This document shows, piece by piece, positions 3,186 through 31,378 of a stretch of 34,892 nucleotides of DNA. The DNA lies in the IMG/VR virus record IMGVR_UViG_3300031773_000015, positions 1-34,892 of that record; one strand, written 5' to 3'. A model generated the notes under the pieces. The model did not search any database, was not told where the DNA came from, and worked only from the letters and a program-made list of their open reading frames with translations. The first letter of the stretch is position 1, and each line of letters opens with the position of its first letter. The position numbers and the translations under genes were made by a program. The stretch is from a virus.

Positions 3186-3194
3186 CTTCAGTTA
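3178..3194. repeat. 17-bp dispersed repeat, copy 3
   Basis: TTTAGACGCTTCAGTTA, preceded by ACAA as in copy 2. Here the repeat overlaps the methyltransferase gene end: the TGA stop codon (3188-3190) lies inside the repeat. Confidence 0.95.
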
Positions 3195-4030
3195 AAAGCA
3201 TCAATTAAAGGATTACTTTGATTTGTATTATTAATTCTTTCTTCTGCTATCTTAAAATAATTACTATTCATTTCAATTCCAATAAATTGTCTATTAGTAT
3301 TAACACAAGCAACACCAGTAGTACCTGATCCCATACAATTATCTAAAACTAAATCATTCTCATTAGTATAAGTTCTAATAAGATATTCCATCAAAGCAAC
3401 TGGTTTCTGTGTAGGGTGAACTGAATCTTTATCTAATCCAAATTCAATTAATTCAGAAGGATAATTTGTATATTTCTGTTCATACTCTGTATCATGCAAT
3501 AGTTTATTACCAGCACCCATATGTTCAGGATTATGTAAGAATTTACCAAGACGTTTTGCACTATTCTTTTTCTTAACTCTCTTCTCAATCAACCCTTGAG
3601 GATTATATGTCATATTACCACCATGCCTAGATGCTGCTGCTGCTCCTGCTGGAGAAAATACAACAACATCTTCAGTTTGTTTCATAGGTCTATAATTAGC
3701 AAGAAGAAATCCTGTAGTCTTTTTCTTTCTCCATATCCACTCATACTTAAACCAATCAATATTACTAACAATAAGTTGACTGGTAAATGGTTGATCAGCA
3801 GTCAAAACTACCGTCCCATTAGGTTTAAGAACTCTTCTATATTGATCCCATAACTTATCAAGTGGAATAACAGTATCCCATGCTAATAATCTATTATCAC
3901 CCTTATCTTTGATACCTTTTCTATCAGTTGTACCATAAGGAAGATCACAGAGAATCAGATCAACTGAATCCTCTGTGATTTTGTCCATTTCTATTAAACA
4001 ATCACCTTGATGTAAAGTTACTTGTTGCAA
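3188..4030 (-). CDS. DNA methyltransferase, beta-class, probably N6-adenine
   Basis: 280 residues. The catalytic motif IV, DLPYGT, is at about residues 29-34, and the SAM-binding motif I, DNCMGSGTTG, at about 230-239. Motif IV before motif I is the beta-class order of amino-methyltransferases. The target-recognition region would be the middle, Lys-rich stretch (about 130-210). HPTQKP at about 206-211 is the usual motif X-like element before motif I. DLPY favours adenine methylation; the target sequence cannot be read from the protein. The start overlaps the end of the upstream gene by 29 bases, so the two are probably co-translated. It may protect phage DNA from host restriction, or be the partner of that upstream gene. 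The stop codon lies inside repeat copy 3. Confidence 0.92.
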   Translation of the reverse strand: MQQVTLHQGDCLIEMDKITEDSVDLILCDLPYGTTDRKGIKDKGDNRLLAWDTVIPLDKLWDQYRRVLKPNGTVVLTADQPFTSQLIVSNIDWFKYEWIWRKKKTTGFLLANYRPMKQTEDVVVFSPAGAAAASRHGGNMTYNPQGLIEKRVKKKNSAKRLGKFLHNPEHMGAGNKLLHDTEYEQKYTNYPSELIEFGLDKDSVHPTQKPVALMEYLIRTYTNENDLVLDNCMGSGTTGVACVNTNRQFIGIEMNSNYFKIAEERINNTNQSNPLIDAFN

Positions 4031-10236: not shown

Positions 10237-10773
10237 TTAACTAACCCCTGTTAAAACACTTAAAGTAGCATCTATTGCATTTGCTGTATCACAATAAACT
10301 CTTATCTCATCACTACTCTCCAATACTGTTTTACCAGCATCCGTAATAACAAAAGAACTTCCATTAGGAACAGGAATATTTCCTGCTAATCCAACTTCAG
10401 TAGAAGCACTATTATCAAAAATCTGAACTGTTAAATTAACTTGACTACTAGTATTATTAGCAAATGTTCCACCAACTAAAATACTTTTTGTTCCAGTCGA
10501 AGTATATGAAGTTGTAGGACCAAGAAACTTAACCGATTGACTGGAGGTGGCAGCGGTGTTTGTAGAGTCTCTATTACAAGTTACAGAAGCAACACCAATA
10601 GCAGTAACTTTAGTTCCTAGTATATAATTGGTATTATCAACTAAATCATTAATAGCAACATCTACGGTAGATATTCCTGTAATTAAATTAGTAGTTATTC
10701 CAATCGAACCAGAAGAACTTGTTGATACAATCCCTGCTGCTCTAGTTAATTTATTTGAAAAAGCTTCTGCCAT
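10237..10773 (-). CDS. small virion structural protein, fibre-associated
   Basis: 178 residues, Ser/Thr/Val-rich and predicted all-beta, with no charged clusters. Starts MAEAFSNKLTRAAGIVSTSS and has NYILGTKVTAIGVASVTCNR in the middle. A T4-type late promoter (GATAAATA) overlaps the end of the upstream gene. Position between two fibre genes suggests a fibre connector or baseplate-associated protein; this is inferred from context. Confidence 0.75.
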   Translation of the reverse strand: MAEAFSNKLTRAAGIVSTSSSGSIGITTNLITGISTVDVAINDLVDNTNYILGTKVTAIGVASVTCNRDSTNTAATSSQSVKFLGPTTSYTSTGTKSILVGGTFANNTSSQVNLTVQIFDNSASTEVGLAGNIPVPNGSSFVITDAGKTVLESSDEIRVYCDTANAIDATLSVLTGVS

Positions 10774-10793: not shown

Positions 10794-10801
10794 TATTTAT
10801 C
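10794..10801 (-). promoter_or_regulatory. T4-type late promoter, GATAAATA
   Basis: GATAAATA lies 21 bases upstream of the ATG of the 178-residue gene and overlaps the stop region of the preceding gene. T4-like phages use TATAAATA-type -10 boxes for late genes. Confidence 0.65.
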
Positions 10802-11876
10802 AACCGCCGAGTGCGATTGCTAGACCTATTGAAGCACCTGGAGTAATTGTAATAGTAGCAATACCACTTGTCCCTGCTGGATCTATTGCTATTGCTGAAC
10901 CACTAGTTGATGCAAAGTTAAGCATACTTGCACCTGCTCCAAGGAAAGTTCCCTCAGAGGCAACACCCACCTGACCAGTACCAGTAACCGTAGATGCATT
11001 AATAGTGGTGAATGTAGCAGTAGTACCTGATATAGTGGTAATAGTTGCACTAGTGCCTACAGCATCAGTAAAATTAAATCTAGTAATTGTAGCACTTGTG
11101 CCTACTATATTAGTAATAGTACTACTTGTACTTACCGTATTGGTAGTATTCAATCTGGTAATTGTACCAACACCAGTGATGTTAATATTTCTACCAGTTA
11201 CCTCATCATAACTAAGATCACCAGTGACATTTAAGTCACCACCAACAGTTAATGATCCAACAACTGTTGCAGCACCAGAAACCACTGCATGAGTAGCACT
11301 TAGAATTCCAACAGTACCAATACCAGTTGTATTGAAAACAGTAAATGTAGCAGCAGTTCCTACCAAACTGGTAGTATTCAATCTGGTAATAGTAGAACTT
11401 GTGCTTACAAAATCAGTATTAGTTAATTTAGGAATTGTAGCACCATAACCAACCCACAAATCACCAAAAGTAGAAACACCTACAAATGTAGATACTCCAG
11501 TTACTTTAATGTCTTTAGAAACATCAACTCGATTAATAGTACCAACACCTGTGATACTCAGGTTTCTACCCGATACCTCATCATATACTACATCATCTAA
11601 AACATAAAGGTCTCCACCAACATAAAGATCCCCTCCAGTAGTTGTAATACCACCAGCAGAGGATAATGTTGTAACACCTGTTATTCGTACATCACTCAGG
11701 AACGTTGAAGCACTTGAGACATGTACTGTCGTTGCACCAATTCCACCATTAACATGGAGAGTGTATTGTGGAACTGACGTGCCAATACCTACCCTAGAAT
11801 TGGTGGCATTAGCTAGAATGAGATCATCGTTGACCTCAAGCCCATTTTTGACTACAAAATTCTTATTGACAGCCAT
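10800..11876 (-). CDS. tail-fibre protein, short-repeat shaft
   Basis: 358 residues. Starts MAVNKNFVVKNGLEVNDDLI, then a GIGTSVPQYTLHVNG segment (about 32-46) also found in other fibres here. The shaft is made of short Thr/Ser/Val/Gly repeats such as TSSTITRLNTT and GTSATITTISGTTATFTT, giving a beta-structured fibre. Two copies of SYDEVTGRN/VYDEVSGRN mark internal duplication. The C-terminus is hydrophobic and Gly-rich (PGASIGLAIALGG). A late promoter lies upstream. Binding partner unknown. Confidence 0.8.
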   Translation of the reverse strand: MAVNKNFVVKNGLEVNDDLILANATNSRVGIGTSVPQYTLHVNGGIGATTVHVSSASTFLSDVRITGVTTLSSAGGITTTGGDLYVGGDLYVLDDVVYDEVSGRNLSITGVGTINRVDVSKDIKVTGVSTFVGVSTFGDLWVGYGATIPKLTNTDFVSTSSTITRLNTTSLVGTAATFTVFNTTGIGTVGILSATHAVVSGAATVVGSLTVGGDLNVTGDLSYDEVTGRNINITGVGTITRLNTTNTVSTSSTITNIVGTSATITRFNFTDAVGTSATITTISGTTATFTTINASTVTGTGQVGVASEGTFLGAGASMLNFASTSGSAIAIDPAGTSGIATITITPGASIGLAIALGG

Positions 11877-11913: not shown

Positions 11914-11921
11914 TATTTATA
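11914..11921 (-). promoter_or_regulatory. T4-type late promoter, TATAAATA
   Basis: Exact TATAAATA in the 60-base gap upstream of the 358-residue fibre gene; AT-rich flanks. Confidence 0.75.
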
Positions 11922-14665: not shown

Positions 14666-17314
14666 TTATGCGTAGTTTTGGACGTTAGATAAGCATATGA
14701 ATGTAGCATCAGCAGTCTTAACTAATGTATGAGTAAGAACATCATATCCACCAGCATTTGCAGCAGATGGAGCAGCACCACCTGACCATTCTTCTGTGAC
14801 TCCACTACCATCAACATTTAATGCTGCAAAATACCCTGCAGCATTTGGTTTATATATGAGTGATACTGTTACTGCTTCACCAGTATACATTTTATTGTTT
14901 AATGAGTAAGTACTATTCCATCTTATATTAGGTGTACCAGTTGTTGTTTCATCCGTACTAAAGTAATGAATCATACCATCTTCAAGGTCAATAGTAGTAT
15001 TAGCACTTAATTTACCAGCAGTTATATTACATTTTTCCTTAAGCATACCACCTAAGTTTAAACCTTGTGTAAAGGTTCCAACTCCCGTAACATTCACTCC
15101 AATGGAAGTCGTGGCTATTTTAACAGAGTTGTCATAGTATAAAGATACAGCTCCATCACCTATACACGAAATAGCAGTCTCACTTGTGTTTGTAAGCAAA
15201 GTAATATCATCTGCTGCTCGCATATTAATATCATCACCATCCCCTTGAATATTAAGATCACCAACATAATTTTTTATATATGAATCTGTACCATTATGCC
15301 ACAATCTTAAATCATTTCCATCTCCTGCAATAAATTCACTACTATCATTAACTTTAACAGTACTACTTGATGTTAATCCATTTGGAAAATCTGCTAATCC
15401 ACCAGAAAGACCACTAAAATCAGTTGCCGAACATATACCAGTCGTTACCGTTCCATCGTTAGTCGTCTCAAATTTTTTGGAATTATCATAGTATATGTCT
15501 ACTGAACCATCTTTGGTACATGCAAGATATGTATCACTACCATTAGCATCCTTGAGCAGAAGTTGATTATCACTCTGAAGAATTAAATTACCAGTATTAT
15601 TATCTATCCATGAGTGGGATCCATTATGATATATGGATAAATCTGAACCATCTCCGAAAACTGCCTTAGAATTATCATTAAAGATCAAACTATTGGCAGA
15701 TGCATCCCAGTAAGCAGATGTAACACCAGCAGCAGTACCATAAATGGATATATCTCCACCAGATTCAAATTTGAGTCTTGATGAACCTGCAGTTTCAAAA
15801 GATATATTATCATTAGCAGGGAATCTTATTGCTGTATTTACATCTCCTGTATGAGTTATCTTATCTGCTACATCAAGTCCAGTAGCAGTAGCAATACCAG
15901 TCGTTGACGTTCCATCGTTAGTCGTCTCAAATTTTTGATTTCCATTATGATATATTTTTACAGCTCCTCCAGATTGAGCATGTATCATGTCAGCATCTGA
16001 TGCATTCTTAATATAAACATCACTTGCTAACACCTTTATACCACCCGTTCCACTGTCTGATATAAAACTGTGGGATCCATCATGATATATGGCAAGATCC
16101 GATGCATCTCCTACGTTTAATCTTACACTATCAAGTAGATGTATATCAGAAGTTCCACTAAATGTGGAAACTCCAGCAATACCTATCGTTACACCACTAC
16201 CTACTAGTAGTTGACCACCAGTTATATTAACACCACTCTTAGCAGTTATAAGACCAACTGAATCTACGTTGGTTACGTCTTCATATGTAAGAGTTCCTGC
16301 GACTGATAATCCTGCGCCAATATATACATTCTTAGCTACACCTAAACCACCATCAACTATTAATGCACCAGAAGTTGATGATGTAGAATCTGTAGTGTCA
16401 TCAACATTAACAGCACCACTAAATGTTCCTGTAGAACCTGCTACTGTACCACCAACTATATTACCATTAACACTAGTAGCAGTTAAAGCACCTGAACTTG
16501 AGTTAAATGTTAGATTACTTCCACTCTTAGGGGGTAAATTTCCTGTTGCAGCAGTAACAAACGTTGGGAAACAAGTTGTATCAGAACTTTCATCAGCAAC
16601 CGTAACATTAGTTGCTGTAGTTGATGTATCAGCATTACCAGTAACAGCACCAGTTAAAGCACCAACAAAAGAAGTCGCAGTTAAAGCACCTGAAGAAGAG
16701 TTAAATGTTAAATTAGTTCCCGTCTTAGGTGCTAAATTTCCTGTTGCAGCAGTAAAGAACGATGGGAAACAAGTTGTATCAGAACTCTCATCAGCAACTG
16801 TGATAGTTGTTCCTGTTGGTAAACTTGTTAAATTAGCACCACTACCACTAAAACTAGCAGCAGTTATAATACCAACTGTCTCTACATCACCCGAAGCATT
16901 AGCAGTAAGAGCAGATCCTACATGAAGTAAAGAAGCAAATGTACCAACACCAATATTTAAACTATCTGCATTTGAAAATTCAGCAGCATATAACTTACCA
17001 GTTATATTAAAATCACCATTCAGAGTTTGTGATGATGCAGCTGAAACAAGTGAATTTGCAACATTAAATGTATCAAAAACAACAAATTCTACAATATTTC
17101 CAGCACCAGCAGCAGTATCTAAAGTAACTGTAGATCCATCATTTGCAGTAAAATCACGACCTTGCGCCAGTCTAACACCACTCTTATAAACTGAAAGTTC
17201 ATTTATTCTATAACCACCAGTAACCGTAAAGTCTTTCTGATCGGCTGTCGCAACCACACTAATAGCTTTTGTAGCAATATTAGGTGTTAATGATAATGGT
17301 CTTCCTATTGCCAT
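14666..17314 (-). CDS. long tail-fibre protein, mosaic of repeats
   Basis: 882 residues. The N-terminal domain (KDFTVTGGYRINELSVYKSG, DFTANDGSTVTLD; about 25-90) resembles that of the 753-residue fibre. Next come two tandem about 65-residue repeats (TVADESSDTTCFP start), a block shared with the 570-residue fibre, and DLAIYHDGSHSFI/KFETTNDGTSTTGIATATG repeats. The C-terminal about 125 residues (GKLSANTTIDLEDGMIHYFS onward) are homologous to the end of the 570-residue protein. The gene is thus a patchwork of modules used elsewhere in the cluster. A weak late promoter (ACTAAATA) lies upstream. Confidence 0.85.
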   Translation of the reverse strand: MAIGRPLSLTPNIATKAISVVATADQKDFTVTGGYRINELSVYKSGVRLAQGRDFTANDGSTVTLDTAAGAGNIVEFVVFDTFNVANSLVSAASSQTLNGDFNITGKLYAAEFSNADSLNIGVGTFASLLHVGSALTANASGDVETVGIITAASFSGSGANLTSLPTGTTITVADESSDTTCFPSFFTAATGNLAPKTGTNLTFNSSSGALTATSFVGALTGAVTGNADTSTTATNVTVADESSDTTCFPTFVTAATGNLPPKSGSNLTFNSSSGALTATSVNGNIVGGTVAGSTGTFSGAVNVDDTTDSTSSTSGALIVDGGLGVAKNVYIGAGLSVAGTLTYEDVTNVDSVGLITAKSGVNITGGQLLVGSGVTIGIAGVSTFSGTSDIHLLDSVRLNVGDASDLAIYHDGSHSFISDSGTGGIKVLASDVYIKNASDADMIHAQSGGAVKIYHNGNQKFETTNDGTSTTGIATATGLDVADKITHTGDVNTAIRFPANDNISFETAGSSRLKFESGGDISIYGTAAGVTSAYWDASANSLIFNDNSKAVFGDGSDLSIYHNGSHSWIDNNTGNLILQSDNQLLLKDANGSDTYLACTKDGSVDIYYDNSKKFETTNDGTVTTGICSATDFSGLSGGLADFPNGLTSSSTVKVNDSSEFIAGDGNDLRLWHNGTDSYIKNYVGDLNIQGDGDDINMRAADDITLLTNTSETAISCIGDGAVSLYYDNSVKIATTSIGVNVTGVGTFTQGLNLGGMLKEKCNITAGKLSANTTIDLEDGMIHYFSTDETTTGTPNIRWNSTYSLNNKMYTGEAVTVSLIYKPNAAGYFAALNVDGSGVTEEWSGGAAPSAANAGGYDVLTHTLVKTADATFICLSNVQNYA
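16210..16424. repeat. about 215-bp block duplicated at 21174-21387
   Basis: The two blocks align without large gaps at an eye-estimated 85-90% identity, and the encoded segments are nearly identical (GALIVDGGLGVAKNVYIGAG in both). A 29-base core at 16260-16288 is also identical to 9611-9639. Confidence 0.85.
16479..16802. repeat. tandem repeat within the 882-residue fibre gene
   Basis: About 125 bases at 16479-16603 recur at 16677-16802 with a 73-base spacer. They encode two copies of a unit containing SSDTTCFP and NLTFNSSSGALTATS. Confidence 0.8.
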
Positions 17315-17357: not shown

Positions 17358-18203
17358 TTATTTTGTTACCGCCTTATACATAAAATCTTTATTAGCAAAA
17401 TTCTTTTTACCAAACAGTCTTTCAGAGGTCTTATCTGCACCTTCCCAATACTTATTACCCATCTCATCTAAAAAGTCTTCCAAATCATTTGCATGTATAC
17501 GTTCACCTCCTTTTATCCTATCATTTGTATATGCAATATATCCTTGAACTTCTTTTGAGCAAATTTGTGGATGAACACCAAACTGCTGCAAATATTCAAT
17601 TGTAGAACTCGAAATTCTACCACTATCAAGCATATTGCGATACATCAACTCAAAACATCTACGAACATGATGTTTCTTTTCTTCATTCTCAAATGATTCT
17701 TCATCCCATTCATCAGGAATATTATGCCTCTCCTTAATATTATTATATGCATCAATTAAAGTTGCAATATCAGAAAAAGCACCATTAATCTTATTTTCCA
17801 TCTCGAATATATTAATACATGCTTGACGATATTTTGCTTGTTGTACAGGATCAGTCTTATCTTCATATCTCTTAATTGTCTTTACTAATAAAGCATGAGA
17901 TACTTGACATTCAGCAAGTGATCCTTTTCTTCTCTCTACCTCTGCTAAAATCTGACGAAGCATACGATATGTGGAATGTCCTCCAAGCATCGTAAGAGAC
18001 ATCATTGTTAATGTTGTCTGACTATTATTACTACCAAATGCTCTCGTCTTCTGATCTAACTCAGGAAGGTATTGACTTACCTTTTGAACTGCTGAATCAT
18101 TAATGTTATTACTTTGTATTGCAAAACCAGGGAATAGTACCTCTTGTTTTGTAATTTTAGTTTCTTCTGTTTTTACGAGTTTATTGTCAGGCATGTCAGA
18201 CAT
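17358..18203 (-). CDS. 281-residue unknown protein with its own consensus promoter
   Basis: 281 residues, largely helical and soluble, unlike the beta-rich fibre proteins around it. A helical region with basic residues (RMLRQILAEVERRKGSLAEC, about 80-99) precedes long charged helices to about residue 200. The C-terminal third has DRIKGGERIHANDLEDFLDE and an aromatic/basic tail (KKNFANKDFMYKAVTK). I recognise no enzyme motif. A perfect TTGACA-17-TATAAT promoter lies directly upstream, inside the end of the oxygenase gene, so I expect strong early expression, with possible late expression from the TATAAATT in the spacer. A regulatory or host-interaction role is more likely than a structural one, but this is inference. 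Confidence 0.85.
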   Translation of the reverse strand: MSDMPDNKLVKTEETKITKQEVLFPGFAIQSNNINDSAVQKVSQYLPELDQKTRAFGSNNSQTTLTMMSLTMLGGHSTYRMLRQILAEVERRKGSLAECQVSHALLVKTIKRYEDKTDPVQQAKYRQACINIFEMENKINGAFSDIATLIDAYNNIKERHNIPDEWDEESFENEEKKHHVRRCFELMYRNMLDSGRISSSTIEYLQQFGVHPQICSKEVQGYIAYTNDRIKGGERIHANDLEDFLDEMGNKYWEGADKTSERLFGKKNFANKDFMYKAVTK

Positions 18204-18217
18204 AATCTTTTTTAATA

Positions 18218-18246
18218 ATTATAACGGTAATTTATATAGGTGTCAA
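18218..18246 (-). promoter_or_regulatory. perfect-consensus sigma-70 promoter for the 281-residue gene
   Basis: TTGACA (18241-18246) and TATAAT (18218-18223) separated by exactly 17 bases. The -35 lies within the last codons of the oxygenase gene. The spacer holds TATAAATT (18229-18236), 7 of 8 matches to a T4-type late box. Confidence 0.85.
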
Positions 18247-18840
18247 TTTATTTCCTATATCATTATAATTATCTGTCTTTTTAAAAATAAACCATCCACT
18301 AGCAATATACTTAGTTTGTGTTGGTGATACAATTCCATGATGTGGATGAGTCCAATATGCTGGCCATATCACCACATCTCCACATCTTGCTTGAATCTCT
18401 AATTCCTGAGTAGGAAAAGCAGTGCCACCACCATCATCTACATCATTAAGATATAACATCCAAACAAGCATTCTCTTTTCACTTCTAAGCAATCCTGTAT
18501 TCTCACAATGTTTAACATAATACCCTTCCTTGGGATAATATCTTTTAATGATAAAATATTCCTCCATACCCCAAATAGATACTTCTTTTAGAAAATCATA
18601 TTCTTCTTCATATTGATCAAGACAAGTACTTAATCCTATATCTAAAGGTTGTAAAATTGGTGCTTTTAAAGACTGTAATCCTAAAGACAAATCAGTACTT
18701 TTCTTTTTTTTCAGATTTAATTCAGAATCACCCAACACACCCTTATGATGATGTTGTGGATTTTCTTCAAACCAATCAATTATACGTTTACAATTTTCAC
18801 GAGATAAAACGTTTTTATATAAAGATATAAAATTTTTCAC
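18232..18840 (-). CDS. 2OG-Fe(II) oxygenase (prolyl-hydroxylase-like)
   Basis: 202 residues; GTG start at 18838-18840. It has the double-stranded beta-helix pattern of 2-oxoglutarate and iron-dependent oxygenases: iron ligands H111 and E113 (YYVKHCEN, HxE rather than the usual HxD), a strand MLVWMLYLNDV with GGGTAFP, and a distal His in WTHPHHG (about 165-168) ten residues before K177, which would bind 2-oxoglutarate. I believe HxE occurs in related marine phage proteins. The substrate is unknown; protein hydroxylation is the family's common activity. It sits among fibre genes with its own promoter. A second oxygenase is at 30785-31378. Confidence 0.88.
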   Translation of the reverse strand: MKNFISLYKNVLSRENCKRIIDWFEENPQHHHKGVLGDSELNLKKKKSTDLSLGLQSLKAPILQPLDIGLSTCLDQYEEEYDFLKEVSIWGMEEYFIIKRYYPKEGYYVKHCENTGLLRSEKRMLVWMLYLNDVDDGGGTAFPTQELEIQARCGDVVIWPAYWTHPHHGIVSPTQTKYIASGWFIFKKTDNYNDIGNKLTPI

Positions 18841-18858
18841 AATATAATTTTTTTATTA

Positions 18859-18887
18859 ACTATAATCCTTATTCAACTAATTGTCAA
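18859..18887 (-). promoter_or_regulatory. sigma-70 promoter for the oxygenase
   Basis: TTGACA (18882-18887) directly after the stop codon of the propeller-like gene, 17 bases, then TATAGT (18859-18864). Five of six matches in the -10, perfect -35. Confidence 0.8.
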
Positions 18888-19910
18888 TTAATCACCCGAA
18901 CCACCATTACCCATTAGACGCTGAGCTCCAATCGTACCAAAAGCACTCGCATTTCCTGTGTTTGCAATCGTTACGTATTGAATATTATTTTTAAACCCAT
19001 CATCATTTTGACCTCCAGCAATTGTGCCACGAGTATCATTAGAGCAACCACCTTGATAATCTACATTAACTTCCATATCACCAAAATCTGTTGCATTTCC
19101 TGTAGTGGCCATTGTTACATAATCAATAGTTCCATAACTACCATTTCCCCACCATGTTCCACGTTCTCCATCTCCACAAGCTGCAGTGGGATTACGTTGT
19201 TGAGTTAAATAACCAAACCCATTTGCATTTGCTGCAGTATCAATTTGTACATACCAAATATATTTATGTGTAGGACCACCAGTTCCTCCAATAAGTCCAC
19301 GACCTTTATCACTACCACATGCAGATCCCCAATACTGCCCATACGTACCAGCTTGATTTCCATAATCACCAAAATCAGATGCATTTCCTGTAGTTGCTAT
19401 TTCAAAATAATCAATTCTACCAGTAGGTGCATATGTAGATGCTGAACCGAAACCATTAGCAAAAATACCTCTAGCTCCATTAGAACAGGCTCCACCTGGA
19501 TTGGCACTTTCATAATTTAAATCACCAAAATCAGATGCATTTCCTGTGTTTGCAATTGTTACATAATCTAAGACATTTGAACTTCCAGGACTAGCATTAT
19601 ATCCACTACCAAAAACAGATCGTGTTGAGTCATCAGCACCTCCTCCCCCACTAGTACTAGCACCATTTGCTCTAGCCTGAGTTAAAGCACCAAAATATGA
19701 CGAATTACCTGTACTTGCTATATTCCAATAGTATATGGTGCTGGTACGAGGATCACTTGGGTATTTATTCGCGAATCCCATAATAGCACGATCTCCTCTA
19801 AAAGCATCTGCACCAGCAGCAGAACCATATCTACCTAAACTGGTAGCACCTCCTCCGAGTCCAATTTGACCCATCATAGGAGATTCTTTGACGTAATTAA
19901 TATAATCCAT
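18888..19910 (-). CDS. propeller-like repeat protein of the tail apparatus
   Basis: 340 residues with six repeats of about 50 residues, each with a signature such as DYVTIANTGNASDFGDL followed by a Gly/Cys turn (GGACSNGARGIFANGF). Repeat starts are at about residues 60, 113, 167, 220, 262 and 310. The pattern resembles kelch-type beta-propeller blades, and the N-terminal 50 residues (GGGATSLGRYGSAAGADAF) may close the ring. Probably a receptor- or glycan-binding part of the virion. TAGGAG lies 10 bases before the ATG. The number of blades and the fold are inferred. Confidence 0.8.
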   Translation of the reverse strand: MDYINYVKESPMMGQIGLGGGATSLGRYGSAAGADAFRGDRAIMGFANKYPSDPRTSTIYYWNIASTGNSSYFGALTQARANGASTSGGGGADDSTRSVFGSGYNASPGSSNVLDYVTIANTGNASDFGDLNYESANPGGACSNGARGIFANGFGSASTYAPTGRIDYFEIATTGNASDFGDYGNQAGTYGQYWGSACGSDKGRGLIGGTGGPTHKYIWYVQIDTAANANGFGYLTQQRNPTAACGDGERGTWWGNGSYGTIDYVTMATTGNATDFGDMEVNVDYQGGCSNDTRGTIAGGQNDDGFKNNIQYVTIANTGNASAFGTIGAQRLMGNGGSGD

Positions 19911-19923
19911 AGTGTTAATTCTC

Positions 19924-21636
19924 CTAAGTTGCGTTTACTAAGTTAATAATAACTTTATATGTGGCATTTGCAGTCTTTAATATATTAAGTGTGTAAATAT
20001 CATGTCCATTAGCACCACCAGCAGTAGGAGCTTCACCACCTACCCATTCTTCTGTTATTCCCGATCCATCAATATTCCAGTTGGCAGAATAACCAGCAGC
20101 AGCAGCAGTTGTTATGACTGTCACCGTAATACAATCACCAGTAGTCAAAATATTATTTAATGTCTTACTACCATCATATCCAATATTAGGAGTACAAGTG
20201 GTAGTTTCAGTAGTAGTAAAGTAATGAACCATGCCATCTGCAAGATAAATATTGGTATTAGAACTTAACTTACCAGCAGTTGATTGGAATTTCTCACTTA
20301 ATATTCCATCAAAATTAGCACCCTTAGTGAAAGTACCAATACCAGTAGTTACCGATCCATCGTTAGTCGTGGCTATTTTTGCAGAGTTGTCATAGTAGAG
20401 AGATGTTGCACCATCAGCAACACAAACTATAGCATTTTCACTACTCTTAGGTCTTATTCTTATTTCACCAGTACCATTTTCTATATAAAAGTTTGATCCA
20501 TCATGAAGTAGAGAAGCATCTCCATCACTACCAAATTTTGCATAAACACCATCACTAAATTTCAATGAATAAGCAGAGGCATCCCATGCTATATCTTTAC
20601 CAGCACTTGCTCCATTATCTAATGTAAAATCATCAGTTACAGTTTGAGCACCAGTAACAGTAAGAGTTGAACCATCAAAAGTTAAGTTTGATTCACCAGC
20701 TAATGCGTTTGCACCAGTAACTGTTGCGACTGTATTATTTGTCGAACCTGATAATGATACTCCTGATATTCCTGTTAATCCAGAACCACCACCTACAAAT
20801 TCAGTAGCACTAATAGTTCCTGAAGATGGATTATAATGAAGATTACCATCCATTTCTAGTCCTACATTACCAGTAGAACTTGTAGCACCCTCAACAAATG
20901 TAATTAAATTAGATTCATTCGTGGACTCATTATCTGTTACATATACATGAGTAGAGTTAGTTGCATTAGTTGCATTAGTTACTGTAACACCAGCAATTAC
21001 TGTGTTTAATGCTGTGCCATTAACAGTAATGGCATCTGCCTCCATCGTGCCATCAATATCCGCATTACCAGAAATATCTAAAGTAGCAGCAGCTACTTCT
21101 CCACCAACAGTTATATTACCTGCAAATGTACCGACTCCTGCAGCCCCTACCGAGAATCCTGCACCAACTTGAAGTTGACCACCAGTAACATTAACTCCAC
21201 TCTTAGCAGTTATAAGACCAACTGAATCTACATTCGTTACGTCTTCGTATGTTAATGTCCCTGCAACTGATAACCCTGCACCAATATATACGTTCTTAGC
21301 TACACCTAAACCACCATCTACTATTAAAGCACCAGATGTGGCTGATGTGGAGTCTGTCGTGGCATCAACATTAACAGCAGCACTAAAATTAGAAGCACCA
21401 GTAAATGTTGATACACCAGAAACAGTAATAGTCTCGGTTCTTACGTTAACAGTTTCTCCAATACCAGATAATGAAGATCCATCACCACTAAAACTTGTAG
21501 CAGTAACAACACCTGTTATATTAACACCACCAGCACCAGTTATTCCCATTCCCGTAGGAACTTGAAATCCATAAGGCAGATTAGGAGCTGATGTTCCTTC
21601 TGCTGCAACAATAGTATTTACTCTTAACTCAGACAT
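19924..21636 (-). CDS. tail-fibre protein, paralogue of the 882-residue fibre
   Basis: 570 residues. Starts MSELRVNTIVAAEGTSAPNL. Residues about 85-165 come from the block also present in the 882-residue fibre. Later segments (DASLLHDGSNFYIENGTGEI; TSLYYDNSAKIATTNDGSVT) are shaft repeats. The C-terminal about 125 residues (GKLSSNTNIYLADGMVHYFT onward) are homologous to the end of the 882-residue protein and may be the receptor-facing or trimer-forming domain. A late promoter (GATAAATA) lies upstream. Confidence 0.85.
   Translation of the reverse strand: MSELRVNTIVAAEGTSAPNLPYGFQVPTGMGITGAGGVNITGVVTATSFSGDGSSLSGIGETVNVRTETITVSGVSTFTGASNFSAAVNVDATTDSTSATSGALIVDGGLGVAKNVYIGAGLSVAGTLTYEDVTNVDSVGLITAKSGVNVTGGQLQVGAGFSVGAAGVGTFAGNITVGGEVAAATLDISGNADIDGTMEADAITVNGTALNTVIAGVTVTNATNATNSTHVYVTDNESTNESNLITFVEGATSSTGNVGLEMDGNLHYNPSSGTISATEFVGGGSGLTGISGVSLSGSTNNTVATVTGANALAGESNLTFDGSTLTVTGAQTVTDDFTLDNGASAGKDIAWDASAYSLKFSDGVYAKFGSDGDASLLHDGSNFYIENGTGEIRIRPKSSENAIVCVADGATSLYYDNSAKIATTNDGSVTTGIGTFTKGANFDGILSEKFQSTAGKLSSNTNIYLADGMVHYFTTTETTTCTPNIGYDGSKTLNNILTTGDCITVTVITTAAAAGYSANWNIDGSGITEEWVGGEAPTAGGANGHDIYTLNILKTANATYKVIINLVNAT
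21174..21387. repeat. duplicated block shared with 16210-16424
   Basis: See the partner block. Differences are scattered single bases, most of them silent by eye, consistent with duplication or gene conversion between two fibre genes. Confidence 0.85.
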
Positions 21637-21662: not shown

Positions 21663-21670
21663 TATTTATC
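21663..21670 (-). promoter_or_regulatory. T4-type late promoter, GATAAATA
   Basis: Lies 27 bases upstream of the 570-residue gene in the 53-base intergenic gap. Confidence 0.65.
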
Positions 21671-21689: not shown

Positions 21690-22211
21690 TTATACAACAG
21701 GTTTAAAAAGACCGAGTGCATCACTAATTAATGTAGTCCCTGCTCCAATAGTAAATGTAGCACCTGATCCTATGAAAGTATCTGCCTCACGCATAAATGC
21801 TATGTTTCCAGAAGTTGCGTCAGAATCGACCCTTACTGAAGTTCCTGCTCCAATATGCAAAATTCTAGAAGCTTTAAAGATATATTGTAGTGGTGTAGTT
21901 TCAGGTAAAGTTGCATCATCAGCATTTAGTGCAGTACCAAGACCAGAAGAGGTTACTCCATCTAAATTTGATCCGTCACCATAAAATGAAGTAGCACTAA
22001 CAATACCAGCATTACCATAAACAGTAACACCAGTACCAACAGTAACAATTCCTGTGACACCTGCTTTAATAGCAGTACCAATTCTTACTTCACCACGAAC
22101 ATCTAATGTAGAACTCGGAACTGTACTTGCAATTCCTACTTCATTACTTGAGGTATCTACAGCAAGAGTGTTTTGGTTTGCTCTATCTGCTAACTGACGT
22201 GCTGCGGTCAT
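21690..22211 (-). CDS. small fibre-type structural protein
   Basis: 173 residues. It has the SSNEVGIASTVPSSTLDVRG segment (about 21-40) and a GNAGIVSATSFYGDGSNLDG segment (about 69-88), both also seen in the longer fibres. All-beta, Ser/Thr/Gly/Val-rich. Likely a short fibre or fibre-connector built from the same modules. Exact late promoter upstream. Confidence 0.8.
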   Translation of the reverse strand: MTAARQLADRANQNTLAVDTSSNEVGIASTVPSSTLDVRGEVRIGTAIKAGVTGIVTVGTGVTVYGNAGIVSATSFYGDGSNLDGVTSSGLGTALNADDATLPETTPLQYIFKASRILHIGAGTSVRVDSDATSGNIAFMREADTFIGSGATFTIGAGTTLISDALGLFKPVV

Positions 22212-22225
22212 TATACTTTTTTAGT

Positions 22226-22233
22226 TATTTATA
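22226..22233 (-). promoter_or_regulatory. T4-type late promoter, TATAAATA
   Basis: Exact TATAAATA, 14 bases upstream of the 173-residue gene, overlapping the end of the preceding gene. Confidence 0.75.
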
Positions 22234-23980: not shown

Positions 23981-26900
23981 TTATGCTGTGAAGTTTTGTC
24001 CTGTAATTACACCAAAGATGCCTTGATTATCTAAATCTGCTCCATCAAAGATCTTGAAGGAGTATATGTCAGTCTTGGATGCTGTTGTAGTAACATCTGG
24101 AACAACACCACCTGGCCAGTATACTGATATAGCATCATCATCACCGTTGTGTATTGTATTAATACCAACTCCATATCCACCTGTGCTATTCTGAGTTAGT
24201 TTCAGAGTAAAGGATTGTGCTGTATTTGTCTTATCAGCATTATATAATCGGATTCTTGAAATATCATCAGTAACTGTACAAATAAATGTACTTGCTTCAT
24301 TCAGATAAATCTTAACCTGATTAGAAACAACAGTTACAATACCAACCTCTTCAGATACAGTCTTCAATCTAGTATGTCCTGCGACATCTAATGCTGCTCG
24401 TGGTGTTACAGTTCCAATACCTGCACCAGATGTAGTTGTTGCAAATATAGTAGCACTACTTCCAACCTTGAGATTAGTAGCAGTTAAAATACCAATACTT
24501 AAATTACCACTCGTAACATCTAGTGCTGTTGCAGTTAAGATACCTGTAACCTTAGCATTTTTAGAAACCAATTCATTATTAAAGAATGCAGATCCATAGA
24601 CAAATAAGTTAGTTGATCCAATACCTACTGATGCATCATTAGAGTTAGAACCAACTGTTAATCCATGAACTGAAGGTGCAGAAGTTCCTATACCTATCTT
24701 TGCTCCATCATAAGTATCATAAGTGATAGAAGAACCACCAGAAACATAATTTGTCCAACCTGTTGCACTAACATTAAGACTGGTTAATGCACTACCATCA
24801 CCCTTAAATGCAGTTGCAGTAACTGTACCTGATACATTAACATCTACGAAAGTAGAAACACCAGATACTTTTAGATTACTAGCAGCATCTAAAGCAAATA
24901 AACTAGATCCAGAACCAACTTGTAAGATATTTGTGCCTGGAGTTGTAGTTGCAATACCTACTTGATCAAATGTATATACATCACCTTCTTTATTAAGACT
25001 TACATTACCAAATCTCTTCCAATCATTCTCGGAAGTATAAACCCAACCAGCATATCCACCTTGATCTGGATTAGCAAAGTAAGTAACATCACCTGGGTTT
25101 CCTGCAAGAGTAGGAGTTCCTAATCCAACACTATATTTTCTAGCAACAGTTGCATCACCTTGAATGTATACATTCTGTGCCTCAACACCCTTGGTAGAGT
25201 TGACAGTCAGTTTATTATTTAATATAACAGGACCATTAAACTCAGATGAAACCTTATTATCATCACCACCATCAACTCTAATTGAACGTGCAAATGATCC
25301 TTCAGTAACCTGACTTACATTTAAACCAGGAAGATTACCAATATCCTCACCAGTTACTGTCTGTACTGGAGTATCAACAATCTCCTCTTTTCCTGTAACG
25401 GTACTTACTTTCTTATTACCAGCATAAGAAATACCCTTATCATTCATTCCTGTGTAGAAGTTTACACCACCATCCTGTTTGGTTGATTGTGCTAATCTTT
25501 CTTCTACCGCATTAACAGTACGATTTTGTTTTGATGGAAGTGCAACTGAATAGTTACCTGGACCAAAACCAACATACTCAAATGTGTGACCAGAGGCACG
25601 AATAAGTGAGTGTCTTCTTAGTTCAACTGGTTCAACAGCAACTTTTCTAACAACAGAGTTAATAACATGACTATCTGCTTTAGATCCTAATACACCACGG
25701 AAGACAGTAACAGAAGAGTCACCATCTGCAACAGTAGTCTTCACCCTCATCATCTCATTATCTACAATTAGATAATCACCAATATTAATATCATTATTAC
25801 CAGAACTCTGGTTAGTAAGAGAAACTGTTGTTGTAGTAGAATTACTAATTGCAGCAGAAAGTGAAGTTGTAAGTCCAGCATATGTTGGAACTTGTCTACC
25901 TGTTAGATTCTCATTTTCTACAGTAATAACACCACCATTTGCTGCATATCCTTCACGATATGCATAAATTGTTCCTGATGCAGTTGGGTTAGTTGTACCC
26001 GTTCCCATATTAACTGCAAACTGGGTCAAACTATTGTTCTGAGTAACAACAAAGTTGCCGTTATATTGTGCTTGAGAAGCACCAACAAACTCTACACTTT
26101 CATCAACTGATAAACCATGATTACCACTACTGGTTATAGTTGCAATACCAGAGTTAAAGTCATAACTTATAGCACTAACAGGAACTGATTCACCTGTTTG
26201 ATACATATATGCATTCGCAGTTAGTGTTTGACCAACACCAACAGCCAACTCACCTGTAGAACCGATGCCAACTGTTGCAAATCCAGAAACCGAAGATGCA
26301 GATTGTACAGTAATACTTCTTGCCACACCAACATCAACAGTAGTAATTCTATAAAGTTGATTGTATCCAGCATAAGATTCAGATGATACACCAGAAACTC
26401 TAACTACATCTCCTACGTTATCATAAACTTTCTGAACTTCAACGACTGCCTGTACAAATCCAGAAGTGGTAGCAACACCAACAACATTCAAAGTATTACC
26501 AATACCATATGCACTACCACCATTCATTAACTTAACAGCAGTAATAGTACCACTACCATTAACAGTTAGTTTTGCTGTAGCACCCTCACCAGTTGTAGAT
26601 GATCCAATCGAAACTAAAGTGGCATTATAAAGATTTCCTGCAGCTCCAGATCCATAACCAGCACCACCAGATGAAATACCAATCTTAGTAGCTCTGTTTA
26701 GACCATGCTCTAATGTAGTAGTAATAGTATGAGCAGTTCCTGTGCGAGAGAATATATTCGTGACACCAAGACCAATTTCACTATCATTAACAAACTTATT
26801 AAGAGTCTCCCTCGTAAGACTGTGTTGAGGATTATCAACAACAACCTGACCTATTGTACTAGGTAATGCAAAAGATTTAGTTTCTACGGGATCAGATACT

Positions 26901-29900
26901 GGAGTGTCTCTATTCGTTTGAGGATATAGATCCTTTACTGGTTGAGAGAATGTCTCATTAGTAAATGGAGAAACGGTAGGAGCATTAGATGCGTTTGCTA
27001 CAGTTAAGTAATAAACACCGTCCTGTTTTCCAGCAACATACTCTTGAGCTTCCTTAGAAGTATAGATTGTATATGTATTATTATATCTCTTTCTCTTGAA
27101 ATATGGTATAGATGTTGTTCTAGAAGAAAGATCGTTAGTAAATGTACCTGGATCTGTTGTTAAACCAACAGTAAAGCATCTAGCACTACTAATACCAATA
27201 ACCTCATAATGTCTATTAAATCCAGTAGCAGCAGTTCCTGCAGTATTCTTTGAACTAGTAATATTAACCAACTCAACTTCAGAACCTATAGAAAGGTCAT
27301 GAGGAAGTTCTGTGGTCACATTAACAGAAGCACTACTATCCCAACTAGCATCAGCAACAAAACTAAAGTTTCTTTGTTGATTTACATTAGATAGTGATCC
27401 ACTTCCAAAATAAGTCTGAACCTCTACATCTGTTCCACCAACTCCAGCGTTTGATTCTTGAATAATATATCCATCAGAAGGTGGACGTGCGACAGTAACC
27501 CCACTCGCAGCAGGAATTACATACCTCATTCTATAAAGAGTATCAGATACATTTCTATTATCAGACTTTCTCTTAATAAAGGTTCTAGTTGTTGCACTTC
27601 CAAGTCCAGTTGAACCAAGTCCAACTATTGTAGTGTAGATACTGTTCTCTGTAGCAGCAGTAGCAACATTAACATACCAGTTAGAATTTGTAGCATCCCA
27701 CTGAATTGGGTGTCCTCTCTCACCAGAAATTTTATCAGATACTCTACTAATAACTTTTAAAAGACCACCTTTATTATTAATTGCAAGAGCAGTATCTCCA
27801 AGTGCTTCATTTAAAGTCTTACCTACTTTTATATTAACATTAGTAGAAATTCCTGTTCCAGTAGTAATCGCATAATATACAGTATTTGCATCTAAACCAT
27901 CAGGTATTTGTCCATCATCACTAATCACACGAACAGACTCACCATTAATAAAGGAGTGAGGTGCAGTTAAAGTAATAACTTTATCATTTCCACCCTGACT
28001 ACTTGATCCAATACTATTAATTCCTGTTGCACTCTGATTAACAGTAAATATCTTTTCTGAACTTAATTGAGTTAAATCCTCTCCACTAGTGGCTTTATAA
28101 CCATCCATAGTAATACGAGAACTATATTCAGTTACAGATCCAGCATAAGATACAAGAACATTTAACTGATCACTTTTTTTTGCACCAACTCTGTATCCTT
28201 CAAGAACATTCTCAGGTTTAACTGCTTGGTTAGTTTGGTTATAAAGGAATAAATGTCCTGTTGATCCAACACCAACTGCCTTACCTGTAGTATTAACATC
28301 AATAGACTCAAATTCAATTGCACTTTCAGGAAGTGGAACTGTCTTTGGTGGAATAATATGTGTAATATATCCTACATCATCTTGATTATATGCAGTATTT
28401 CTAAATCCTTTAGATGAAAGTGCAACAGCACCAAAGTTAGAGTTAGAGTTGGTAAGAGAAATATCTCCACCATTCTCAGTTAAGAAATGCTGTGCATAAC
28501 CAATAGCAAACACAGACACAGCCTGTATGACTGCTTCATTAGTTACTTTAACGTGGAAGTTTCTATAAGAAGGTTTATAAACTGCCTTTGAGTTTGTACT
28601 TAAATTATCAACAGTCAAACTTGTATCATAATTACCAGATGGAATATCATCAGTATTAAATTTTACAAATGCATTATTATCCTTCTGCAGTCCAATACCA
28701 GTAAACTGAGCAACAACCATAGACTTAAATCCAGTTGCCTTTTTACCATCGGCAACCATACCACACATACCATAAACTGATCTTAGAGAACAGTTAAAGA
28801 TATATGGTGAAGATGATGTAACTGTATCAGATGAAAGAGTTAGGGTAGACCCTGTTGCAGAAGGATTTGGTGTTGTTGGTGAGTTCTGAACCTGATATTT
28901 TACCCGTGTAGAACTAGGTCTATCAGACACAACAAACTTACCATCATATCCTGAAGCAGAAATACCATCAACAACAAATGGAGTGTCTACATCTAATCCA
29001 GTAAGTTCACTCTCAAGAGTAACAGTAATAGTGGTAGAAGTAGTTGTTCCATCTCCTGCAAAAATACTAGTAATTCCTACTGAAGCACCAGTAGAACCAA
29101 CAATACGATATTCATCAATCTTACTCTGAATATCAATAGAGGTGGATGGATAATCTGGTTCAATAGCACGACCAGAAGATTGTCCATATGCAAGACCAAC
29201 CTTCTCATAATACATGGTAAGGTCAGTTCTGTCTGTTGTATAATTTGCTATAAACTCATCGTTAATTTTTACTTCATTAACACCATCTGCATACTCAAAA
29301 CATGATAATTTGTGATGAGAGAAGTTGGGAACGTGCTCATTTGTAGTATAATCCTTATATACCTTACCATTAGGATCTCCATCAAACATAGAGAACTGCC
29401 AGAGATAACATCCACCAGTAACTCTGAATAAACAAGATCTTTCAATATTATCATTCTCTGGATCAGGAACATACTTAGGTCTTATCTTTGTCTTTCTTAA
29501 ATCTAAACCAACAAGAGAAGTACCACGAGGAAGAATTACACCACCATGAATACTATTCAACTTATAGAGTTCATTATTGGGTGAATCTAAATCAAAATTA
29601 CTTGTTAAATCAAATGGTGGAAAATTATCAGACGATGATCCACTTCTAAGTTTAAAATTATCAGATCCATCAGGAATATAACCAGGTCTATTATCTACAA
29701 TATGATCACCAGGATATATTAATACAGTCGTTTTACCAAATCTATCGTTATCTAATCCTTTCTGGTATGAAAACCTCGATGCCTCTACTAAAGCACGTTG
29801 AATTGTTTTAAAAGGACGTGTTAATGAGTTTCCCTGATTCTCTATACTATCTGTTGCATCCAAATCATTTGGATTAACATAGAGAATGTTCCCTCTCGTC

Positions 29901-29944
29901 GATTTTAAAAAATTATCTAATCTGGAAAGACCCATCTTACTCAA
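23981..29944 (-). CDS. giant baseplate/tail-fibre structural protein with beta-helix N-terminus
   Basis: 1,987 residues, the largest product here. The N-terminal about 550 residues (SLTRPFKTIQRALVEASRFS, then GGVILPRGTSLVGLDLRKTK) have the pattern of a right-handed parallel beta-helix. Modules of the type SGNHGLSVDESVEFVGASQA with YNGNFVV recur at about residues 300, 665, 880, 1080 and 1275. From about 1600 on are fibre modules (GIGTSAPSVHGLTVGS; VTATAFKGDGSALTSL). The mixture suggests a protein that connects baseplate and fibres. A late promoter (GATAAATA) is upstream. Marine T4-like phages carry comparable giant structural proteins, but I cannot name a T4 equivalent. Confidence 0.88.
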   Translation of the reverse strand: MSKMGLSRLDNFLKSTRGNILYVNPNDLDATDSIENQGNSLTRPFKTIQRALVEASRFSYQKGLDNDRFGKTTVLIYPGDHIVDNRPGYIPDGSDNFKLRSGSSSDNFPPFDLTSNFDLDSPNNELYKLNSIHGGVILPRGTSLVGLDLRKTKIRPKYVPDPENDNIERSCLFRVTGGCYLWQFSMFDGDPNGKVYKDYTTNEHVPNFSHHKLSCFEYADGVNEVKINDEFIANYTTDRTDLTMYYEKVGLAYGQSSGRAIEPDYPSTSIDIQSKIDEYRIVGSTGASVGITSIFAGDGTTTSTTITVTLESELTGLDVDTPFVVDGISASGYDGKFVVSDRPSSTRVKYQVQNSPTTPNPSATGSTLTLSSDTVTSSSPYIFNCSLRSVYGMCGMVADGKKATGFKSMVVAQFTGIGLQKDNNAFVKFNTDDIPSGNYDTSLTVDNLSTNSKAVYKPSYRNFHVKVTNEAVIQAVSVFAIGYAQHFLTENGGDISLTNSNSNFGAVALSSKGFRNTAYNQDDVGYITHIIPPKTVPLPESAIEFESIDVNTTGKAVGVGSTGHLFLYNQTNQAVKPENVLEGYRVGAKKSDQLNVLVSYAGSVTEYSSRITMDGYKATSGEDLTQLSSEKIFTVNQSATGINSIGSSSQGGNDKVITLTAPHSFINGESVRVISDDGQIPDGLDANTVYYAITTGTGISTNVNIKVGKTLNEALGDTALAINNKGGLLKVISRVSDKISGERGHPIQWDATNSNWYVNVATAATENSIYTTIVGLGSTGLGSATTRTFIKRKSDNRNVSDTLYRMRYVIPAASGVTVARPPSDGYIIQESNAGVGGTDVEVQTYFGSGSLSNVNQQRNFSFVADASWDSSASVNVTTELPHDLSIGSEVELVNITSSKNTAGTAATGFNRHYEVIGISSARCFTVGLTTDPGTFTNDLSSRTTSIPYFKRKRYNNTYTIYTSKEAQEYVAGKQDGVYYLTVANASNAPTVSPFTNETFSQPVKDLYPQTNRDTPVSDPVETKSFALPSTIGQVVVDNPQHSLTRETLNKFVNDSEIGLGVTNIFSRTGTAHTITTTLEHGLNRATKIGISSGGAGYGSGAAGNLYNATLVSIGSSTTGEGATAKLTVNGSGTITAVKLMNGGSAYGIGNTLNVVGVATTSGFVQAVVEVQKVYDNVGDVVRVSGVSSESYAGYNQLYRITTVDVGVARSITVQSASSVSGFATVGIGSTGELAVGVGQTLTANAYMYQTGESVPVSAISYDFNSGIATITSSGNHGLSVDESVEFVGASQAQYNGNFVVTQNNSLTQFAVNMGTGTTNPTASGTIYAYREGYAANGGVITVENENLTGRQVPTYAGLTTSLSAAISNSTTTTVSLTNQSSGNNDINIGDYLIVDNEMMRVKTTVADGDSSVTVFRGVLGSKADSHVINSVVRKVAVEPVELRRHSLIRASGHTFEYVGFGPGNYSVALPSKQNRTVNAVEERLAQSTKQDGGVNFYTGMNDKGISYAGNKKVSTVTGKEEIVDTPVQTVTGEDIGNLPGLNVSQVTEGSFARSIRVDGGDDNKVSSEFNGPVILNNKLTVNSTKGVEAQNVYIQGDATVARKYSVGLGTPTLAGNPGDVTYFANPDQGGYAGWVYTSENDWKRFGNVSLNKEGDVYTFDQVGIATTTPGTNILQVGSGSSLFALDAASNLKVSGVSTFVDVNVSGTVTATAFKGDGSALTSLNVSATGWTNYVSGGSSITYDTYDGAKIGIGTSAPSVHGLTVGSNSNDASVGIGSTNLFVYGSAFFNNELVSKNAKVTGILTATALDVTSGNLSIGILTATNLKVGSSATIFATTTSGAGIGTVTPRAALDVAGHTRLKTVSEEVGIVTVVSNQVKIYLNEASTFICTVTDDISRIRLYNADKTNTAQSFTLKLTQNSTGGYGVGINTIHNGDDDAISVYWPGGVVPDVTTTASKTDIYSFKIFDGADLDNQGIFGVITGQNFTA

Positions 29945-29964: not shown

Positions 29965-29972
29965 TATTTATC
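29965..29972 (-). promoter_or_regulatory. T4-type late promoter, GATAAATA
   Basis: Lies 21 bases upstream of the 1,987-residue gene, in a 43-base intergenic gap. Confidence 0.7.
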
Positions 29973-30380: not shown

Positions 30381-30563
30381 TCAAATAGGATCAACGTAGG
30401 ATACGGTGTCAACAGGTGCGTGTTCACGAACGTAATTTAATACGCTTATGAACTCTTCAGGAGTATCACACTCTACAGTCTTCTTATCCCCCTCATTAGA
30501 ATAGATGTGAACAGTCCTTCTAACGGTGTCTACGACACAACGAGATAAGTATTCTTCTTCCAT
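30381..30563 (-). CDS. small phage protein, unknown; start moved to 30563
   Basis: 60 residues starting MEEEYLSRCVVDTVRRTVHI. A longer frame begins at a TTG at 30612-30614, but that TTG is the first half of the -35 box TTGACA of a good promoter, and the ATG at 30561-30563 has a ribosome site (AGGA, 6 bases upstream). The protein has two strands and a helix (IYSNEGDKKTVECDTPEEFI). Resembles small conserved cyanophage proteins; function unknown. Confidence 0.75.
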   Translation of the reverse strand: MEEEYLSRCVVDTVRRTVHIYSNEGDKKTVECDTPEEFISVLNYVREHAPVDTVSYVDPI

Positions 30564-30584
30564 AGAGTGTCCTGCATATCTAAC

Positions 30585-30590
30585 TATAAT
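30585..30590 (+). promoter_or_regulatory. plus-strand -10 TATAAT overlapping the opposite promoter
   Basis: TATAAT on the + strand, 25 bases upstream of the plus-strand gene. The -35 region is poor. It overlaps the minus-strand TATTAT (30586-30591), so only one could be used at a time. Confidence 0.45.
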
Positions 30591-30614
30591 AGGGTAAAGT
30601 GAGGAATTTGTCAA
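30586..30614 (-). promoter_or_regulatory. sigma-70 promoter for the 60-residue gene
   Basis: TTGACA (30609-30614), 17-base spacer, TATTAT (30586-30591). Perfect -35 and spacing; the -10 has five of six matches. Confidence 0.75.
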
Positions 30615-30615
30615 G

Positions 30616-30810
30616 ATGGCATCAGAATTGAATCAATATGCAATATATGATTGCAATATTCTAAGAATCAACTTAAATGAAATGGTTCAGAGAAGAGCAT
30701 CATCTCAAGGTAAAACATTAACCGATCAAGAAATAGATGATATAGCAGTAGTTCTTAGGAGAAAAATAGACTGGGAACCAATCTTTAGTCAGATTGATAC
30801 TTATCTGTAG
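30616..30810 (+). CDS. small helical protein, the only plus-strand gene seen
   Basis: 64 residues, MASELNQYAIYDCNILRINL onward, then a helical C-terminal half (GKTLTDQEIDDIAVVLRRKI). Sequence looks like a real protein with coherent helices and normal composition rather than a shadow frame. It faces away from the 60-residue gene across overlapping promoters and runs 26 bases into the end of the oxygenase gene, so convergent transcription is expected. Function unknown. Confidence 0.7.
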   Translation: MASELNQYAIYDCNILRINLNEMVQRRASSQGKTLTDQEIDDIAVVLRRKIDWEPIFSQIDTYL

Positions 30811-31378
30811 AAGTATTATACCAAAAAGAAAGAGCATAACGATCTGCTCCTACTACCCTAGTGACATGGTGTTTGTGTTGAGAATTAGAAAATATTAATA
30901 ACTTACCTGCCTTTGGTTGTACCTCAAACTCTTTAAATCCAGTATAACCTCCTTCAAAATCATCATTCAAATAAAGAAGTGCTGCAAATAAATCATAGAT
31001 ACCATCCTTTGCAGAATTATCATAATGTGGTTTCATAAAAGTTCCTGGAGTCCATTTTATGACTCCAACATAATCTGGATTAGCCCTATCATCAAATAGT
31101 TTACATATCCTTGTTACTCTATTAACAACATTAGTATAAAAATCATCAGTTTCTCCCTTCATATCAATAAATTCTGCATGACCTTGATACTGAGCAGAAT
31201 CTAAATTCTCATCCTGCCTTGCGTAATGAGCAGCATAATCATAGTCATCCTCTTGTGGTTCACTAGGAGGAACAGTATCTCCCTCATGCCCCACAGCAGT
31301 CATCTCAGCACGTTCTATAAGTTTCTTACATTCACTAGGAGATATAAAGTTCTCCTCAATATAAATTAATTTCTTCAC
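30785..31378 (-). CDS. 2OG-Fe(II) oxygenase (prolyl 4-hydroxylase-like)
   Basis: 197 residues; GTG start (31376-31378) overlapping the stop of the upstream gene within ATGTGA. Iron ligands H118 and D120 (MKPHYDNS) and distal H170 (SQHKHHVTRVVGADRY), with R180 ten residues later as 2-oxoglutarate anchor. The LLYLNDDFEGGYTGF strand (about 134-148) is typical of prolyl 4-hydroxylase-like enzymes. It should hydroxylate a protein side chain using 2-oxoglutarate and O2; substrate unknown. Its gene is coupled to a fibre gene, so a virion protein is one possible target. Confidence 0.9.
   Translation of the reverse strand: MKKLIYIEENFISPSECKKLIERAEMTAVGHEGDTVPPSEPQEDDYDYAAHYARQDENLDSAQYQGHAEFIDMKGETDDFYTNVVNRVTRICKLFDDRANPDYVGVIKWTPGTFMKPHYDNSAKDGIYDLFAALLYLNDDFEGGYTGFKEFEVQPKAGKLLIFSNSQHKHHVTRVVGADRYALSFWYNTSTDKYQSD

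Follow-up and report, generated by a model that had tools for sequence, protein, structure and literature searches.

It is usual to assume that every gene of a late fibre cluster is expressed late; accessory genes with a promoter of their own are already known, and morons usually have one. In cyanophages, NATAAATA has been described as the late box and sigma70 motifs are found at early genes; for RB49 and S-PM2, overlapping early and late input to middle genes has been proposed (PMC2984593). One metabolic gene, psbA of S-PM2, is reported to have a combined sigma70 and Gp55 site, carrying motifs for both early and late expression (PMC5931967). Among the commonest unexplained cyanophage genes are the 2OG-Fe(II) oxygenases, which occur in 14 of 16 genomes (PMC3037559).

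The window, by which we mean the whole 34.9-kb stretch of the virus record analysed here, has nearly every gene on the minus strand and looks like a fibre cluster from a marine T4-like phage that is most likely a cyanophage. An upstream fibre gene of 570 aa (19924..21636, minus strand) is followed by an open reading frame for a Kelch-like repeat tail fibre of 340 aa (18888..19910, minus strand; 256 relatives in viral contigs); between this and the next fibre gene, of 882 aa (14666..17314, minus strand; phrog tail fiber matches), lie a 2OG-Fe(II) oxygenase of 202 aa with a GTG start (18232..18840, minus strand), whose nearest protein matches are cyanophages, and a gene for a predicted helical protein of 281 aa, here called gene B (17358..18203, minus strand).

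Comparison with described systems reveals both likenesses and differences. Specifically, i) the T4-like late promoter NATAAATA of S-PM2 and Syn9 (PMC2984593) is matched by boxes before the window's fibre genes, but an exact copy precedes neither the oxygenase nor gene B; ii) S-PM2 psbA (PMC5931967) likewise joins a host-type promoter on a metabolic gene to a late-type element, but does not belong to a fibre cluster, and the window oxygenase has no late box; iii) like a phage moron, the oxygenase is an extra gene with its own promoter, set between late genes and absent from the same place in relatives, but no terminator could be found in or after it on the minus strand, for which reason we call it only moron-like, and the neighbouring gene B falls outside the moron pattern; iv) the T4-GC412 cassettes (SSM2_035 of S-SM2, gp46 of Bellamy) also have a fibre-cluster 2OG oxygenase, TTGACA-17-TATAAT in the spacer and NATAAATA on the neighbours, but there the oxygenase heads a small enzyme block, whereas that of the window stands alone before gene B and is a different, non-orthologous member of phrog_61; and v) T4-GC353/phrog_1409 shares with gene B a weak sequence match and the same fibre-cluster position, but gene B is very diverged and the cultured members lie in operons without host-type promoters. 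Judging from sequence, we consider it probable that the locus is a moron-like, host-promoter oxygenase cassette within a late fibre cluster, transcribed both early and by late read-through. We found no description of a systematic split between host-promoter oxygenases and late-promoter fibre genes in the open-licence papers searched; an earlier one elsewhere is possible.

Promoters and late boxes in the window

The first-pass annotation had pointed to two host-type promoters, one after the upstream stop and one at the end of the oxygenase, and both are directly observed on the minus strand. Promoter 1, TTGACA-17-TATAGT (18887..18859; 11 of 12 consensus bases), directly abuts the TAA that ends the Kelch-like gene and scores 13.9, the second best value in the window; promoter 2, TTGACA-17-TATAAT (18246..18218; 12 of 12), scores 14.9, the best, and overlaps the oxygenase stop (18232-18234), its -35 lying within the last oxygenase codons. 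With both strands scored, no other sigma70-like site in the window scores as high as these two, each of which pairs TTGACA with a TATAAT-like hexamer across 17 nt, within the 16-18 nt range for such promoters, and well above chance: simulated windows (300) averaged 0.1 sites of at least 13.9, 0.7% of them had two or more, and none reached 14.9. The -10 lies 18 nt from the start codon for promoter 1 and 14 nt for promoter 2, implying short leaders. The two promoters are not unique in kind, since a third good sigma70-type site, TTGACA-17-TATTAT (30614..30586, minus strand), precedes a small non-fibre phrog_662 gene. We also considered a duplicated promoter as the footprint of an insertion and rejected it, the alike stretches after the two -10s being matched equally well by 14% of shuffles.

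The late boxes that had been noted on the neighbouring genes are borne out by position: of the 36 minus-strand genes, 7 have a NATAAATA box in the 60 nt ahead of them, where random placement would give 0.5. All three exact copies of TATAAATA in the window lie a short way ahead of a minus-strand gene, as at 22226..22233 before the gene at 21690..22211 and at 11914..11921 before that at 10800..11876; GATAAATA is found at 21663..21670 before the 570-aa fibre gene, at 10794..10801 before the gene at 10237..10773, and at 29965..29972 before the fibre gene at 23981..29944 (all minus strand). TGATAAATA is the reading of many late boxes, including those at 10794..10801, 21663..21670 and 29965..29972 in the window and those of fibre spacers L273-L399, and in relatives the late box often reaches back into the end of the preceding gene.

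A late-type box had also been reported in the second spacer. The element there, TATAAATT (18236..18229, minus strand), lies between the -35 and -10 of promoter 2, 25 nt ahead of the gene B start where the usual late-box distance is 16-40 nt, and differs from NATAAATA in its last base; such variants are rare, only 2 of 117 fibre spacers relying on one.

Fibre-cluster loci in related phages

An unselected survey collected 126 loci through two fibre proteins, among them the 570-aa protein encoded at 19924..21636, blind to promoters and oxygenases and leaving out the window's phage and contig G037; all genes with an upstream spacer of 25-130 nt were scored, a sigma70 score of at least 10 counting as positive. 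Sixteen of the 18 oxygenase or cassette-enzyme genes were positive (13 of them scoring at least 12) and none had a late box, whereas no fibre gene of 117 was positive and 88 had a late box when the box was allowed to reach up to 15 nt into the upstream gene (60 of 117 in the spacer alone); among 271 other genes, 20 had a sigma70 site and 95 a late box. The difference between enzyme heads and fibre genes is large (Fisher p 7e-19), with the reservation that 14 of the 16 positives are one orthologue, of 53-94% identity, and not independent events. Four further oxygenase types (at locus L345, two in G037, and that of the window) have the same layout, making about five types in all. The promoter split noted in the first-pass annotation is thus general: fibre-cluster oxygenases have host-type promoters and fibre genes have late boxes, and it is directly observed that these promoters recur at oxygenase heads and that fibre genes lack them.

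The survey also bears on whether the promoter merely arrived with the gene from a donor and serves no function today. Morons usually bring a promoter of their own, and the slot between the Kelch-like gene and gene B holds an oxygenase only in the window lineage and, as a different family, in G037, as would be expected of inherited baggage; but the same arrangement is found in different oxygenase families, and the common orthologue keeps its hexamers (in 11 promoters from 11 contigs the -10 is 91-100% and the -35 73-100% conserved) while most spacer positions have diverged. Because the hexamers of that orthologue are conserved over the spacer and several families share the arrangement, selection appears to keep the promoter, and we think the donor explanation unlikely.

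Two features of the oxygenase leaders may be recorded here. The common oxygenase has a conserved leader, CTGAATACATNATAGG, located after the -10 and ahead of the start codon (L273, L329, L331, L349, L357, L381 and L268:3593). At L068, L074, L078 and L079 an oxygenase gene is preceded by TTGCAC-17-TATAAT and then immediately by a GGGG/CCCC hairpin with a T run, a promoter with a terminator-like element directly after it. A literature search for promoter stem-loop elements returned nothing.

Contig G037 (locus L103), whose gene B is 62% identical to that of the window, offers a parallel case. Late boxes precede its fibre genes, and three sigma70-headed cassettes, with promoters in 45-47-nt spacers, lie between them, headed by three different 2OG oxygenases: i) TTGACA-17-TATAAT before a 2OG oxygenase, phrog_2954, a 2OG oxygenase and a tryptophan halogenase; ii) TTGACA-17-TATACT before a 2OG oxygenase, a Nol-like carbamoyltransferase and a 2OG oxygenase; and iii) TTGACG-17-TATAAT before a PF13759-type 2OG oxygenase and gene B, the slot of the window oxygenase being occupied by a different oxygenase family. 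A search with the L103 oxygenase for further cases of the order Kelch, oxygenase, gene B returned only L103's own contig.

Among cultured phages, S-SM2 and Bellamy carry orthologues of the common oxygenase (81% and 79%) in the fibre cluster, with TTGACA-17-TATAAT ahead and late boxes on the neighbours, and Synechococcus phage ACG-2014g combines TTGACG-17-TATAAT with a divergent oxygenase block; no strong sigma70 site precedes the orthologues of S-MbCM6, P-RSM4 and Sf-CH11. The ACG-2014g block (L404:6343-9600) lies inside the fibre cluster on the opposite strand and is oriented divergently to the common oxygenase. A sharp division of promoter classes within one cluster, seen in cultured isolates, indicates when the enzymes are likely made and makes both timing and function of the oxygenases directly testable; position in a late cluster need not mean late expression.

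The region is 69% AT, and the promoters could in principle be chance AT-rich matches, a reading to which we give practically no credence: the simulations expect 0.1 such sites, 7 of 15 gene B spacers have a sigma70-type site against 0.27 expected (see below), the comparative survey (16/18 versus 0/117) refutes it, and the site shared by S-SM2 and Bellamy also speaks against it.

Gene B and the inserted oxygenase

The oxygenase matches PF13640 (E 4e-9; 37.7 bits, curated cut-off 27) and phrog_61 (E 8e-37), and has the expected iron ligands H111-x-E113 (the Glu variant) and H165/H167 together with a 2OG-binding K177, about 10 residues past the distal His, all conserved in 11 relatives. Its only close relative is in the same phage; most homologues elsewhere belong to operons that lack such promoters.

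Viral contigs contain about 196 relatives of gene B, which appears to be a distant member of phrog_1409/T4-GC353 and a resident of the fibre cluster: the profile match holds for 6 of 7 members (best 5.5e-9), SShM2_038 of S-ShM2 matching the gene B profile weakly (E 1e-4), and like the T4-GC353 genes of S-ShM2 and P-HM2 gene B follows fibre genes at the same position in the cluster. In S-ShM2, three 2OG oxygenases lie within four genes after the T4-GC353 member. Gene B is very diverged, giving no tblastn match in 50,697 phage records; no Pfam family was found for it, and two AlphaFold models (pLDDT 70 and 82) consist of long helices with no convincing fold match.

The first-pass annotation had read the two genes together as a moron-like island and had asked whether relatives lack both between the same fibre genes; they lack only the oxygenase. 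In loci gathered with Kelch or gene B proteins as probes, gene B comes directly after the last Kelch gene in 66 of 119 positions, and an oxygenase follows the Kelch gene in 9 of 119 and other genes in 2 of 621; an oxygenase between the Kelch gene and gene B is confined to the window and L103. We therefore reject a single island of two genes, since relatives without the oxygenase keep gene B after the Kelch gene; the moron-like reading stands for the oxygenase, which is absent from the relatives' site and has its own promoter (promoter 1), but not for gene B. The adjacency of Kelch gene and gene B, together with the T4-GC353 position in S-ShM2 and P-HM2, argues that gene B is resident and that the oxygenase alone was inserted.

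Host-type promoters before gene B recur in lineages without the oxygenase. Where the gene B spacer is at least 35 nt, 7 of 15 have a sigma70-type site (0.27 expected), in about four lineages; at L188, L191 and L201, TGA|TTGACA-16-TATAAT stands immediately after the Kelch stop. Contig L243, which also has such a site before gene B, is T4-like by Gp23 and sheath, and its neck gene, two genes further on, has TATAAATA. The excess is confined to these spacers of at least 35 nt; the broader proposition that the gene B spacer is generally the contig's best sigma70 site was not upheld by an unselected rank test (10 observed versus 6.7 expected, not significant), because most loci have no spacer.

Timing and possible roles of the cassette

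We propose that an oxygenase cassette entered the cluster at the junction of a Kelch-like fibre gene with gene B; that unmodified host RNA polymerase could transcribe the oxygenase once the DNA enters, since it has its own sigma70-type promoter, while the surrounding fibre genes would wait for the phage late factor at NATAAATA boxes; that late transcripts from upstream NATAAATA boxes would then read through the oxygenase, there being no terminator before it (no terminator-like site was found on the minus strand between the upstream fibre gene and gene B); that gene B, an old resident of the cluster, would be expressed early and possibly also late from a host-type promoter overlapping a weak late-like box; and that the enzyme may have a target associated with the adjacent fibre or with its receptor. 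As no terminator separates these genes from the upstream late transcript, expression all through infection is a better fit than an early phase alone. Expression of the homologues is not reported in the passages found in PMC5082946, PMC7238727 and PMC5931967.

The promoters could instead be used constitutively or in the middle period, host sigma70 remaining active all through infection in phages without MotA and AsiA, and we give this somewhat less than an even chance. Cyanophages have no motA and asi, and overlapping early and late promoters are thought to serve their middle genes (PMC2984593); S-PM2 psbA keeps motifs for both early and late expression (PMC5931967) and all P-HM2 auxiliary metabolic genes fall in the middle cluster (PMC5082946); and TATAAATT lies inside promoter 2. 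A late box at none of the 18 oxygenase heads speaks against a dual late design for the oxygenases.

Adjacency to Kelch fibres suggests that the oxygenase modifies the fibre, its receptor or the cell surface. Gene B and the oxygenase might be fibre-maturation factors needed before fibre synthesis, to which host promoters give a head start: both genes occur together with the Kelch fibre gene in several arrangements (window, L103, L100, L120, S-ShM2), and the oxygenase resembles prolyl 4-hydroxylases (PDB 3itq, E 2e-4). However, we know of no hydroxylated fibre residue, and co-location could reflect insertion at a shared hot spot, and we hold this role to be possible but doubtful. More broadly, and tentatively, fibre clusters of marine T4-like phages may run on two clocks, in which host-promoter oxidative cassettes (2OG oxygenases, halogenase, carbamoyltransferase), lying between late fibre genes and travelling with them, would supply fibre-, receptor- or surface-modifying enzymes from the first minutes as an exchangeable host-recognition module.

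Two further features of the window lie outside the cassette. A second 2OG oxygenase, of the H-x-D type (30785..31378), has no promoter of its own, its start overlapping the upstream stop; after it come a terminator-like hairpin (30784..30768), the TTGACA-17-TATTAT site and the phrog_662 gene (region 30381..30614). Downstream of the fibre cluster, at 3188..4030, is a DNA methyltransferase gene (phrog_67).
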